Source of the DNA: Acetobacteraceae bacterium
GTDB taxonomy: Bacteria > Pseudomonadota > Alphaproteobacteria > Acetobacterales > Acetobacteraceae
Assembly: GCA_947371015.1 (NCBI GenBank)
Contig: CANBNK010000006.1
Location: 1-64,000 of the forward strand
Reading direction: 5' to 3'
DNA: 64,000 nt
Shown here: piece by piece, positions 18,313-23,330 of the stretch
Layout: every line of letters begins with the position of its first letter
Position numbering within the stretch: position 1 is the first letter of the stretch
Translations under genes and position numbers: made by a program
The notes under the pieces: generated by a model
Told to the model about the DNA's origin: nothing
The model's database searches: none
Seen by the model: only the letters and a program-made list of their open reading frames with translations

Positions 18313-20343
18313 ATGGTGTCGCCGCTTGCCGGCAAGCGCGTACTGGATCTCGGCGCCTTCTGCGCCCAGGTGCCGCACGCGCTGGCCGCTTCCATGGCCG
18401 CCCGGCTCTGCGCCGCCTATGGCGCCGAGGTGGTGCGGCCGGTGCCGGTGGGCGGCGACCCGTTTTGCGGGTTTGCGCCGCTGCTGCCGGGTGGTGGCTC
18501 GGCGCTGGACCGGTTCCTCAACACCGGCAAACGCATCGGCGCCGCGGAGGGCCGGTTCGACGCGGCCATCGGCGACACCGTGGCGCTGGCTGGCGTGGAC
18601 GCGCCGATAAAAGTGCGCCTCTCCCACTTCGGCCCCGGCGAGGACCCGGAGATGAGCGAGCTTGGCCTGCTCGCGCTGTCCGGCCTGCTCGGCATCGTCG
18701 GCGAGAGCGAAGGCCCGCCGGCGCGGCTGGCCGGGCACCAGGCAGCCTATTCCGGCGGCCTGGCGGCCAGCACCGCGCTGATGGCGGCGCTGCGCGCGGG
18801 CGGCGAGGAACAGATCGAAATCTCGCTGTTCGATGTGTGCTGCTGGCTGAACTGGAAGGTGGCGGCCAGCGTGGTCGTGCTCGGCACCTCGCCGATGCGC
18901 GGCGGCACCCGAGCGGACTGGTACACCGTGCCCTGCAAGGACGGCCATATCGCCCTGGTCTACCAGGAGAAGGACTGGCCGGCGATGCGCGCCATGGTGG
19001 CCGACCCCCGCCTGGACAACCCCATCTTCAAGGACCGACCCGGCCGCCGTGCCAACCGCACCGCGCTGCTGGAGGTGCTCGGCCCCTGGTTCATGGCGCG
19101 CACCCGCGCCGAGATCACCGCCGACGCCCAGCCGCGCCGCATCCCCATCGGCCCCGTGCTGTTCCCGGCCGAACTCCTGAAGGACAAGCAGCACGGCGCC
19201 CGTGGCTTCGTTGCCGCCGATGGCATGCCGGTGCTGCCGCTGAGCTGGAACGGCGCCCGCGTGGAGCCGGACCCTGGCGCCACCGCCGCCCCGCCGCCGG
19301 CCGCCCCGCGGGAAAAGCCGCTGTCGGGCATCAAGGTGGTGGACCTTGGCTGGCTGACCGCCGGGGCGGCGTCCTCCGCCGTGCTGCTGGACCTTGGCGC
19401 CCAGGTGGTGAAGGTGGAGGGCCCGACCGCGCCCGACCCGTTTCGCAACAACGAGAATTCCAAGCCCGGCGAGCCCTGGTGGAACCAATCCGCCTGGTTC
19501 GCCTTCACCAATCGCGGCAAGCAGAGCCTCTGCATCGACCTCAAGGACGCGCGCGGGCGCGAGGTCATCCTGCGCCTGCTGGAAGACGCCGATGTGCTGG
19601 TGGAGAATTACCGCCGTGGCGTGCTGGCCAATTTCGGGCTTTCCGTGGAGTTCCTGCGGCAGCGCTTCCCGCGCCTGGTCATCGCCAGCATCTCCAGCCA
19701 GGGCGAGACCGGGCCAGAGCGCGACATGACCAGTTTTGGGAGTACCTTGGAAGCGACCGGCGGCCTGGCCTCCATGACCGGCAGCGGGGCCGCGCCGGTC
19801 ATCAGCGGGCGGGACGTGAACTACCCCGACCAGGTGGTGTGCCTGTTCGCTTCGGGCGCCATGGTCGCGGCGCTGCTGGAGCGCGACCGCACCGGCCAGG
19901 GCGCGCATCTGGACCTGTCGCAGCGCGAACTCACCAGCTTTCTGCTGGGCGAGGAGTTGCTGGTGGCCGCCGCCGGCGCGCCCTCCGCCCGGCGCGGCAA
20001 TGCCGACCCCCTGGCGCCAGCGGACCGCGTGGTGGCGGATGGCGCCGGCTGGCGCGCGGAATGGCGGGGCGGCAGCGCCTCGGTGCGGGACGGCTACGCG
20101 CTGGCCGAAGCCGCCGAGTTCAAGGCCGGCACCGCGGTGCAGCGCGCCCCGGATGGCAAGCCGGCCAAGGGCATTCCGTTCCGCTTCACCCGCCGGCCGC
20201 TGGCCATTACGGATAGCTGCCATCTGCTGGGCGCCGACAACGCCGCAGTGCTGGCGGCGGCGGGTTACGATGCCGGCTTCATCGCTGGTCTGGAGCAGGC
20301 CGGTGTGCTGGCGACCGAACCGCGCGGCAAGCGCCACGAATAG
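18313..20343 (+). CDS. double-domain family III (CaiB/BaiF) CoA-transferase
   Basis: A 676-residue protein containing two family III CoA-transferase domains in tandem, whereas the usual subunit is 380-450 residues. The first (1 to about 320) keeps the overall pattern (GKRVLDLGAF, GAEVVRPV, EISLFDVCCW) but has AGHQAAYSGG where the catalytic Asp should be. The second (from about 335) has KVVDLGWLTAG, VVKVEGPTAPDPF, DVLVENYRRG and an Asp in VNYPDQVV (about residue 506) that aligns with the acyl-accepting Asp. Family III enzymes work as interlocked dimers, so the fusion may give one active and one degenerate half. It probably activates the acid degraded by this operon. Confidence 0.85.
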   Translation: MVSPLAGKRVLDLGAFCAQVPHALAASMAARLCAAYGAEVVRPVPVGGDPFCGFAPLLPGGGSALDRFLNTGKRIGAAEGRFDAAIGDTVALAGVDAPIKVRLSHFGPGEDPEMSELGLLALSGLLGIVGESEGPPARLAGHQAAYSGGLAASTALMAALRAGGEEQIEISLFDVCCWLNWKVAASVVVLGTSPMRGGTRADWYTVPCKDGHIALVYQEKDWPAMRAMVADPRLDNPIFKDRPGRRANRTALLEVLGPWFMARTRAEITADAQPRRIPIGPVLFPAELLKDKQHGARGFVAADGMPVLPLSWNGARVEPDPGATAAPPPAAPREKPLSGIKVVDLGWLTAGAASSAVLLDLGAQVVKVEGPTAPDPFRNNENSKPGEPWWNQSAWFAFTNRGKQSLCIDLKDARGREVILRLLEDADVLVENYRRGVLANFGLSVEFLRQRFPRLVIASISSQGETGPERDMTSFGSTLEATGGLASMTGSGAAPVISGRDVNYPDQVVCLFASGAMVAALLERDRTGQGAHLDLSQRELTSFLLGEELLVAAAGAPSARRGNADPLAPADRVVADGAGWRAEWRGGSASVRDGYALAEAAEFKAGTAVQRAPDGKPAKGIPFRFTRRPLAITDSCHLLGADNAAVLAAAGYDAGFIAGLEQAGVLATEPRGKRHE

Positions 20344-20361
20344 GCTAGCCGCTTCCGCGCA

Positions 20362-20461
20362 CCGCGCGGGTAGCGCGGCTGAACCCCCGCGCGGGGTGCG
20401 CGGCTGAACTACCGCGCGACCAGCGCGCCTGAGCCAACGCGCTGCAAGCGCGGCAGCATAA
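20362..20461 (+). repeat. four tandem 25-nt units, each a GC hairpin
   Basis: Units begin at 20362, 20387, 20412 and 20437 with an exact 25-nt period. Each has the form CCGCGC-N5-GCGCGG followed by CTGAAC-like sequence. Loops are GGGTA, GGGGT, GACCA and TGCAA. Units 1 and 2 have perfect 6-bp stems; units 3 and 4 keep 5 bp. The array fills the gap between the CoA-transferase stop and the ribosome site (AGAGGAAA) of the first Bug gene, so it forms its 5' leader. Confidence 0.9.
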
Positions 20462-20473
20462 GAGGAAACCCGG

Positions 20474-21433
20474 ATGACCCGTCGCCGTAGCCTGCTCGCC
20501 CTCCCCGCCCTGCTCGCCGCGCCGCGCGCCCGGGCGGCCGGCTACCCGGACAAGCCGGTGCGGATGATCGTGCCCTTTCCCCCCGGCGGCGGCACCGACA
20601 ACCTCGGCCGGCTGCTGGCGCGCGAGATGAGCGAGCGGCTGGGCCAGACCGTGGTGGTGGAGAACAGGGGCGGCGCCGGCGGCAATATCGGCGCGACCAC
20701 GGCCGCCCAGTCGGCGCCGGATGGCTACACCATGCTGTTCAACGGCAATGGCATGGCCATCAGCCGGGAGCTGTTCAAGAACCCCGGCTACAACTGGGAC
20801 ACCGACTTCACCTGGGTGGCCCGCACCGCCAGCACCCCGGTGCTGCTGGTGGTCAATGAGCACGTACCGGCCCGCAACCTGCGCGACTTCATCGCCTATG
20901 CCCGGGCCAACCCCGGCCGGCTGAACCACGGCACCGCCGGTGCCGGCACGCCCTTCCACCTGGGTGGCGAGCTGTTCAATGAAATGGCCGGCACCCGCAT
21001 CATCCATGTGCCGTACCGCGGCACCGGGCCTGCCGTCGCCGGGCTGCTGGGCAATGAGGTGCAGTGCATGTTCGCCTCCTCCACCGGGGTGGACGGGCTG
21101 ATCCGCGACGGCAAGATCTTCCCGCTGGCCAACCTGGCTGGCAAGCGCGCCCGGGGCTGGCCGCAACTGCCCAGCATCAGCGAGGAACTGCCCGGCTACG
21201 CCGCCGAGCAATGGTACGTGCTGGGCGTGCCGCGCCGCACGCCGGAGGACATCGTGCACAAGCTGGAGACGGTGACGCGGGCGATGATGACCGACCGCGC
21301 CTTCGCCCGGCTGTGCGAGGAGCGCGGCTTCGATCCGGAGTTCCTCGACAGCGCTGGGGCCACCAAGGCGCTGGAGGCCGACCACGCCCGCTGGGCGCCG
21401 ATCCTGCCGCGCGCCGGTATCACCCCCGAATGA
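20474..21433 (+). CDS. Bug/TctC substrate-binding protein, first of a coupled trio
   Basis: A 319-residue Bug protein with leader MTRRRSLLALPALLAAPRARA (arginine-rich, possibly Tat) and textbook motifs PFPPGGGTDNLGR, VVENRGGAGGNIG, APDGYTML and HVPYRGTG. The ribosome site is AGAGGAAA, right after the hairpin array. It overlaps the next Bug gene by ATGA. Being placed behind the CoA-ester operon, it may capture that pathway's acid from the periplasm. The hairpin leader suggests it is either insulated from, or differentially expressed relative to, the upstream genes. Confidence 0.92.
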   Translation: MTRRRSLLALPALLAAPRARAAGYPDKPVRMIVPFPPGGGTDNLGRLLAREMSERLGQTVVVENRGGAGGNIGATTAAQSAPDGYTMLFNGNGMAISRELFKNPGYNWDTDFTWVARTASTPVLLVVNEHVPARNLRDFIAYARANPGRLNHGTAGAGTPFHLGGELFNEMAGTRIIHVPYRGTGPAVAGLLGNEVQCMFASSTGVDGLIRDGKIFPLANLAGKRARGWPQLPSISEELPGYAAEQWYVLGVPRRTPEDIVHKLETVTRAMMTDRAFARLCEERGFDPEFLDSAGATKALEADHARWAPILPRAGITPE

Positions 21434-22365
21434 TCCGCTTTCTTGTAGCCCTGCTGCTGACCGCCCCGGCAGCGCAGGCGGCTTGGCCGGAGCGGCCCTT
21501 CCGGCTCATCGTCGGCTATGCGCCGGGTGGGTCCACCGACATCATCGCCCGCACCGTGGCCGATGGCATCGGCCAGCGGCTGGGCCAGCAGGTGGTGGTG
21601 GAGAATCGCGGCGGCGCCGGGGGCGTGCCCGCCGCCGCCGTGGCGGTGCAGAATGAGCCGGACGGCTACACCCTGGTGCTGCATACCCAGGGGCTGAACC
21701 AGGGCGCCGCCGTCGGCACCCGCATGCCGTTCCACCCGGTGGATGCCTGGGCGCCAATCGGCTTGGCCGCGACCGGCGCCAATGCGCTGATGATCCATCC
21801 CTCCATTCCCGCGCAGACGATGCGGGAGTTGCAGGCCTGGGTCCGTGCCTCCGGCCAGCCGCTGCGCTTCGGTACGCCGGGCATCGGGCTGTCCTCCGCC
21901 GTCTTCGCCCAGGGGATGGAGGTGGAGATGGAGGAGATCCGTTATCGCGGCACCTCCGCCGCGCTGGCGGATTTGCTGGCCGGGCGGGTGCACGCCTACA
22001 CCATCGCGCTGGCGGGGGTGCTGCCCTACGTCCAGTCCGGCCAACTCAGGGCGCTGGCCATCGCCGGGCCGCGCCGCAGCCGGGCGATGCCGGAGCTGCC
22101 GACCACGGCGGAGGCCGGTTTCCCCAGCGTCATCATGGTCAGCTGGTTCGGCCTGGTCACGCTGGCCGGCACGCCGCCGGACCGGGTGGCCGCGCTGTTC
22201 GGCGCGCTGAACGCCACGCTGGCCGACCCGGTGGCGCGGGAAAAGCTGGAAGCCGCCGGGCTGGATGTTGACCCCAGCGCCTCGCCGGCCCAGTTCGGCG
22301 CCATGTACCGTGCCGATTTCGACCGCTGGATGGTCGTCTCGCGCCAGCAGGGATGGACCCGATGA
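21430..22365 (+). CDS. Bug/TctC substrate-binding protein, second of a coupled trio
   Basis: A 311-residue Bug protein with signal peptide MIRFLVALLLTAPAAQA and motifs YAPGGSTDIIAR, VVENRGGAGGVPA, PDGYTLVL and EIRYRGTSAAL. The Met at 21430 overlaps the preceding stop as ATGA; there is no separate ribosome site, implying translation by re-initiation. It shares the phrase LPTTAEAGFP and the ending around DRVAALFGALNATLADP with the third member, so these two look like a recent duplication relative to the first. Ligand unknown. Confidence 0.9.
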   Translation: MIRFLVALLLTAPAAQAAWPERPFRLIVGYAPGGSTDIIARTVADGIGQRLGQQVVVENRGGAGGVPAAAVAVQNEPDGYTLVLHTQGLNQGAAVGTRMPFHPVDAWAPIGLAATGANALMIHPSIPAQTMRELQAWVRASGQPLRFGTPGIGLSSAVFAQGMEVEMEEIRYRGTSAALADLLAGRVHAYTIALAGVLPYVQSGQLRALAIAGPRRSRAMPELPTTAEAGFPSVIMVSWFGLVTLAGTPPDRVAALFGALNATLADPVAREKLEAAGLDVDPSASPAQFGAMYRADFDRWMVVSRQQGWTR

Positions 22366-23330
22366 TTCGCCTGCTCTTCGCGCTGCTGCTGCTGGCCCAA
22401 GGGGGAATGGTATCGGCGCAGGCTCAGTTCCCCGACAAGCCGCTGCGCCTGGTGATCCCGTTCACGCCGGGCGGCACCAACGACATCATCGGCCGCCTGG
22501 TGACGGAGGGCATGGGCCGGCGGCTGGGGCAGAACTTCATCATCGAGAACCGCGGTGGCGCCGGCGGCATGCTGGGTGCCGATATCGTCGCCAAGGCGGC
22601 GCCGGATGGCTACACCATCCTGCTCGGCGGCAGCGGCAGCCTGACCATCTCAAGCCTGGTGCACGCGCATGTGCCGTTCGACGTAGCGACCGCCTTCGCG
22701 CCGATCGGCCTGATGGCGGTGGGGCCGAACGTCATCGTCGTCCATCCCTCGGTGCCCGTGCAGTCACTGCGGGAGTTGCAGGCCTTCGCCCGCGCCGCCC
22801 GGCCGCCGCTGAGCTATGCCAGCCCCGGCGTCGGCAGCACCGGCCATGCCGCGGGCGTGATGATATTGCAGGCGCTGGGGGTGGAGATGGAGCACATCCC
22901 CTACCGGGGCACCGCGCCGGCGCTGACCGACGTGATGGCCGGGCGCATCCCGGTCTTCACCAACGCGCTGGCGCCGATGCAGCCCTATATCGAAGCTGGC
23001 CGTCTGCGTGCCCTGGCCATTGCCGGCACCCGCCGCAGCCCGGCGATGCCGAACCTGCCGACCACGGCGGAGGCGGGCTTCCCGCAGATCCAGGCCGCGA
23101 CCTGGTTCGGCCTGCTGGCCACCGGCGGCAGCCCGGCGGACCGGGTGGCGCGGCTGCATGCGGCGCTGAACGCAACCCTGGCCGACCCGGAAGTCCGCCG
23201 GAAGCTGGAGGAAAGCGGCAGCGAGGTGGAGGCCAGCGACAGCCCGGCCGCCTTCTCCCGCTACTTCGCCGAGGATCGGGCGCGCTGGGGCCAGGTGATC
23301 GACCGCGCGGGGATGCGCGGCCGGGAATAG
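22362..23330 (+). CDS. Bug/TctC substrate-binding protein, third of a coupled trio
   Basis: A 322-residue Bug protein with signal peptide MIRLLFALLLLAQGGMVSAQA and motifs FTPGGTNDIIGR, IIENRGGAGGMLG, APDGYTILL and HIPYRGTAPAL. It starts at 22362 by an ATGA overlap, as in the previous pair; an in-frame Met at 22353 is less likely. Its end is only 7 bp from the end of ssb on the other strand. High similarity in the C-terminal half to the second member (TTAEAGFP, ALNATLADP) points to tandem duplication. Confidence 0.9.
   Translation: MIRLLFALLLLAQGGMVSAQAQFPDKPLRLVIPFTPGGTNDIIGRLVTEGMGRRLGQNFIIENRGGAGGMLGADIVAKAAPDGYTILLGGSGSLTISSLVHAHVPFDVATAFAPIGLMAVGPNVIVVHPSVPVQSLRELQAFARAARPPLSYASPGVGSTGHAAGVMILQALGVEMEHIPYRGTAPALTDVMAGRIPVFTNALAPMQPYIEAGRLRALAIAGTRRSPAMPNLPTTAEAGFPQIQAATWFGLLATGGSPADRVARLHAALNATLADPEVRRKLEESGSEVEASDSPAAFSRYFAEDRARWGQVIDRAGMRGRE

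Follow-up and report, generated by a model that had tools for sequence, protein, structure and literature searches.

A species-specific array of 25-nt inverted-repeat units between a CaiB-type gene and three Bug receptor genes in an Acetobacteraceae bacterium, and its relation to gene-end arrays in the genus

Several hairpins may stand in a row after a gene, as in tandem intrinsic terminators. A second kind of tandem arrangement is provided by prokaryotic satellites and intergenic minisatellites, i.e. head-to-tail units of 10–200 nt, the sequence of which is private to the locus and the copy number of which varies (PMC6749651). REPs and GTAG-tagged palindromes of 20–40 nt adjoin genes, are sometimes arranged in tandem and may provide the stop codon (PMC3733652), and in Escherichia coli, ribosomes are reported to stall where a REP lies no more than 15 nt from the stop codon (Liang 2015, as cited in PMC12306157). 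In archaeal Borgs, finally, tandem repeats originate independently at each locus, have unique units, have flanking partial repeats that are taken as seeds, and evolve fast, with non-coding unit lengths mostly not divisible by three (PMC9879509). In the openly licensed literature, we found no published account of gene-end hairpin minisatellites combining the features described below. An earlier statement that no named element has the form of the focal array is fair, with gene-end REP clusters and intergenic minisatellites being the closest kinds.

The window, i.e. the whole 64,000-nt stretch of Acetobacteraceae DNA analysed here, contains four tandem units of a G+C-rich inverted repeat with an exact period of 25 nt, located between two genes (positions 20360–20459, Table 1). 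The array reached a TRF score of 99, with a maximum of 71 in 60 dinucleotide shuffles of the window, so that the head-to-tail repetition is above chance. This confirms the period reported by a sequence-only reading of the locus, and the unit sequences bear out the differing 5-nt loops. The common form CCGCGC-N5-GCGCGG given there holds for units 1 and 2 with their 6-bp stems; units 3 and 4 have stems of only 5 bp, and the stem common to all four is CGCGC/GCGCG. Comparison of the four units yields no covariation support for this stem, because none of the five inner pairs varies, the number of pairs changed on both sides being zero.

The gap between the CaiB-type stop codon and the first Bug start codon comprises 130 nt (20344–20473), of which the array occupies about 100 nt. 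It starts 16 nt after the stop codon (at 20343), i.e. as an extragenic palindrome near a gene end, and ends 14 nt ahead of the first Bug start codon (20474). Translational coupling of the three Bug genes, as proposed earlier, is plausible from their overlapping ends, and the CaiB-type and Bug genes probably form one operon.

Table 1. Positions of the features at the focal locus, given in window coordinates, and of the arrays at two genes that carry them in four species
Feature	Position	Strand	Basis or remark
CaiB-type CoA-transferase (family III) gene, upstream of the array	18313..20343	+	PF02515, E 5e-92, two stretches
3' end of the CaiB-type gene, GAACCGCGCGGCAAGCGCCACGAATAG; similar to the array unit, possible seed	20317..20343	+	Sequence comparison
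Unit 1	20360..20384	.	CA-CCGCGC-GGGTA-GCGCGG-CTGAAC, 6-bp stem
Unit 2	20385..20409	.	CC-CCGCGC-GGGGT-GCGCGG-CTGAAC, 6-bp stem
Unit 3	20410..20434	.	TA-CCGCGC-GACCA-GCGCGC-CTGAGC, outer pair C.C, 5-bp stem
Unit 4	20435..20459	.	CA-ACGCGC-TGCAA-GCGCGG-CAGCAT, outer pair A.G, 5-bp stem
Probable Shine-Dalgarno sequence GAGGAAA before the first Bug gene	20462..20468	+	Direct sequence; G003 and G004 have AGGAAAC at this position
First Bug/TctC receptor gene	20474..21433	+	PF03401, E 2e-61
Second Bug/TctC receptor gene	21430..22365	+	PF03401, E 9e-50; ATGA overlap with the first (stop 21433/start 21430)
Third Bug/TctC receptor gene	22353..23330	+	PF03401, E 4e-62; overlaps the second (stop 22365/start 22353)
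TPP-enzyme array	G000:C5 (L179:7733-7794)
TPP-enzyme array	G003:C26 (L227:8808)
TPP-enzyme array	G005:C50 (L229:1872-1947)
TPP-enzyme array	G002:C139 (L304)
Malic-enzyme array	L291 (G005)
Malic-enzyme array	L292 (G003)
Malic-enzyme array	L293 (G000)
Malic-enzyme array	L294 (G002)

The CaiB-type and Bug gene pair was also found in four other species of the genus, with the end of the CaiB-type gene almost invariant in the five species and the gap varying. Compared between species, with one genome for each, the orthologous gap holds four units in the focal genome (G000), one in G004, whose Bug protein is 94 % identical to the focal one, one and perhaps a decayed second in G003, and none in G001 and G005, where the Bug start codon lies 15–24 nt after the CaiB-type stop codon. 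It is unit 4, the one nearest the Shine-Dalgarno sequence, that is matched by a single copy in G003 and in G004. The array itself, the conservation of which in close relatives had been named as decisive by the sequence-only reading, is thus specific to its species, although two of the relatives have kept a single unit.

The search proposed along with that reading, for which the four copies were turned into a covariance model, recovered these copies; all further matches in the six genomes of the genus were isolated and no more frequent than by chance. The lone units in G003 and G004 scored about 20 bits, and no second array of the focal unit was detected elsewhere in these genomes. Pattern matches outside the focal array were about as frequent as those of a reversed-pattern control, i.e. 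there is no dispersed family. The scans likewise offered no promoter, terminator, Rfam family or dispersed unit copies that would explain the array. In sum, the focal array is genuine, is best described as a hairpin minisatellite peculiar to this species within a probable operon, and is not a conserved Bug leader.

Pattern searches revealed other GCGC-N5-GCGC hairpin arrays in the focal genus, with periods of 24–28 nt. A census covered samples of G000 (755 kb) and G003 (940 kb), which had been selected regardless of arrays, as well as 400 kb of another genus of the family, with genes called by a simple GC-frame method and non-coding arrays with a period of 20–30 nt detected by TRF. This resulted in 10 arrays in G000, 20 in G003 and one in the other genus. 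The units of this class measure 23–28 nt and mostly bear a hairpin, each locus having its own unit, some of them without GCGC. Stop codons were overlapped by 14 of the 21 stronger arrays of G000 and G003, compared to a null mean of 3.9 (none of 300 random placements reached 14), while overlaps with start codons were as expected (3 vs 4.1). Typically, the gene terminates within the first unit, which thus comprises its final codons together with the stop codon, and one to six further copies follow. Divergent gaps harbour only about one of 30 arrays, though they account for 24 % of the gaps of at least 60 nt, and three arrays found by pattern search in other genera of the family overlap stop codons too. 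A general enrichment of stop-centred hairpins across all genes was not found in the genus; there is a modest bump of hairpins after stop codons, which is also present in the control genus and is as expected of terminators. One periodicity was missed by the gene caller, i.e. 24.5 imperfect copies of 24 nt over almost 600 nt (G000:C8, L214:2209-2796), which on the other strand resembles an alanine/lysine-rich coding repeat.

Two genes carry arrays in the same four species (G000, G002, G003 and G005), where both the version of the unit and the number of copies differ from array to array. At the end of the malic enzyme genes, the gene end and stop codon of the respective species are repeated in tandem in two to six copies, and the array of the TPP-dependent enzyme gene starts inside its last codons (..ALRG-TAG). 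In G001 and G004, neither gene has an array and the gene ends are without a GCGC hairpin, that of the TPP-dependent enzyme gene having lost it, which points to the gene-end hairpin as the seed. An array at the gene for AccC (biotin carboxylase) is found only in G000. For the focal array, an origin from a seed at the end of the CaiB-type gene is likely, judging by the resemblance of CGAACCGCGCGGCAAGCGC to positions 20358–20376; it is not proven, because the array does not overlap the stop codon, the identity is 84 % over 19 nt and the spacing is 42 instead of 25.

Further arrays of the genus deserve mention in their own right. Seven almost perfect 26-nt copies of GTCGTGCGTCAGCACGCCTTTGGCAT lie 42 nt after a predicted ORF in G000:C10 (L220:6058-6236), the C-terminal half of which resembles a PhoR-type sensor histidine kinase, making this array a good candidate for a copy-number test. 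In G003, the loop is inverted within a single array (L238:18815-18895), with GCGC-TTTA-GCGC in three units and GCGC-TAAA-GCGC in the last, suggesting a change such as a template switch inside the hairpin would produce.

With bacterial minisatellites and VNTRs (PMC6749651), the class shares the general form, locus-private units and a varying copy number, but it is distinguished by mostly hairpin-bearing units, a period of 23–28 nt, arrays that start at stop codons and more slowly diverging stems. REP and BIME elements are likewise palindromes next to genes, and REPs near a stop codon can alter mRNA stability or translation; in contrast, the present class has no dispersed family and no RAYT, and each unit usually copies the end of its own gene. 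Borg repeats (PMC9879509) have independent origins, locus-specific units, seed flanks, fast evolution and non-coding unit lengths that are mostly no multiples of three in common with our arrays, but are almost perfect, A-rich and common inside ORFs, whereas the present arrays are G+C-rich, imperfect, hairpin-bearing and located at gene ends. Unlike tandem intrinsic terminators, the focal hairpins are without a U-tract. An array in G003 (G003:C54, L194:3771-3923) consists of nearly seven 23-nt units GCGCGC-CTCA-GCGCGC-TTTTCAG right after a TGA, with TTTT after each hairpin, and resembles a row of canonical intrinsic terminators.

The better preservation of stems than loops, which had been noted for the focal array, turned out to be true of the class and is not special to the focal locus. 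In 15 unselected arrays of the genus, i.e. leaving out the focal array and those chosen by the GCGC pattern, the divergence from the array consensus was 5.2 % in stems and 12.0 % at other positions, with 4 of 2000 rotations of the stem mask giving a value as low. At G/C sites only, the values were 4.7 % and 13.5 %, respectively (1 of 2000 rotations). The effect was smaller but held once the GCGC-pattern-chosen arrays, which favour conserved stems, had been removed, and coding arrays showed only a small difference between stems and the rest. Compensatory changes were almost absent, i.e. one vs 24 broken pairs and six G-U pairs in the set including the GCGC-pattern-chosen arrays. The slower divergence of stems suggests selection or hairpin-dependent copying rather than pure neutrality, and may also reflect DNA-level recognition.

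Taken together, we consider it probable, at roughly 0.6, that the focal array is a minisatellite, which arose recently and in this species only by tandem expansion of a G+C-rich inverted-repeat unit of about 25 nt in the 3' flank of the CaiB-type gene, and a member of the genus-wide class. Such an array would begin with a short hairpin at or just past the 3' end of a gene, in many cases with the stop codon and the codons before it as part of the hairpin, which would be duplicated head to tail through local slippage or tandem duplication, presumably favoured by the hairpin. Copy numbers turn over fast between species, and extra copies may be tolerated because the reading frame is not disturbed by the first one. 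If there is an effect, it would concern the end of the upstream transcript, i.e. a barrier to 3' exonucleases or a pause of ribosomes at the stop codon, and would not be that of a dedicated Bug leader; the array most likely acts, if at all, on the upstream transcript. Against a reading as a minisatellite only, a maintained function could be the reason why four species share arrays at two of their genes.

The alternative that retains most weight, though we regard it as clearly less probable than the expansion, is a functional RNA structure at the 3' end, with selected hairpins that protect the upstream transcript against 3' exonucleases or delay ribosomes when they reach the stop codon, and with more copies having a stronger effect, so that arrays originate repeatedly at the same genes. 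The divergence of stems in the unselected arrays, at about half the rate of the other positions, the placement at stop rather than start codons with only one of about 30 arrays in a divergent gap, the recurrence at two genes in four of six species and the ribosome stalling at REPs within 15 nt of stop codons, as reported via PMC12306157, are all in line with it. However, compensatory changes are nearly lacking, stop-centred hairpins are not generally enriched in the genus, and the focal copy number is zero in relatives that keep both genes. Moreover, the prediction for the focal array is pairing between units instead of four hairpins. The structure with four hairpins has −41.4 kcal/mol compared to −68.8 kcal/mol for the best fold, and the ensemble pairing probability of each of the hairpins is near 0 and rises to at most 0.15 when the pair span is limited to 30 nt, because the GCGCG arms pair equally well or better with the arms of neighbouring units. 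RNA folding thus does not predict a separate hairpin for every unit, as in the earlier view, and compared to shuffled sequences, the region has a folding z-score of only −1.7.

A leader or attenuator in the 5' region of the Bug mRNA, controlling transcription or translation of the gene trio as originally suggested, appears quite improbable. The array does occupy most of the 130-nt gap up to 14 nt before the Bug start codon, and a single unit holds its position in G003 and G004, but copy numbers of 4, 1, 1, 0 and 0, with the genes only 15–24 nt apart where units are missing (G001 and G005), disagree with this role, as does the occurrence of the class at many unrelated genes, at stops rather than starts. 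Besides the lack of covariation, our scans of the focal region gave no sigma-70-like promoter match, no intrinsic terminator (a stem followed by a T run) between 20100 and 20700, and no Rfam family at the gathering score, the three weak Rfam matches all lying outside the array.

Even less probable is a cluster of operators for a DNA-binding protein with the GCGC arms as the putative recognised sequence. The invariant part of the focal array is indeed CGCGC/GCGCG and not the loops, the spacing is regular at close to 25 bp, and recognition at the DNA level needs no compensatory change; yet the units differ by locus, some being without GCGC, the focal unit is no more frequent outside its array than by chance, and the placement tracks stop codons, not promoters. 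A REP/BIME-type element spread by a Y1 (RAYT) transposase, as suggested by short palindromes adjoining stop codons, by a GGRTAGCGC core recurring at several loci and by the ability of GTAG REPs to supply the TAG stop of an ORF (PMC3733652), was rejected, since Y1_Tnp (PF01797) is present in none of the six genomes of the genus (the same search was positive in five control genomes), the focal unit is not dispersed and units are locus-specific, and the core itself is found at few loci only, several of which are orthologous gene ends.

On its own, the focal array is a lineage-specific repeat, and it is the class around it that is more useful and deserves a proper census. More speculatively, and as a possibility that we hold to be rather doubtful in this full form, stop-codon hairpin arrays could constitute a class that is genus-wide, perhaps family-wide, in which the gene end together with its stop codon folds as a hairpin and is reiterated two to seven times in units of about 25 nt, with stems under selection and with a copy number that could be adjusted in evolution to set how stable the upstream mRNA is or how it is translated. 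In the class, core genes such as those for AccC and the malic enzyme provide a natural set of hairpin arrays at gene ends that are present or absent between sister species. Thereby, it allows one to test whether tandem duplication in bacteria is driven by hairpins, and whether the number of repeats at the stop codon tunes mRNA stability or translation termination.
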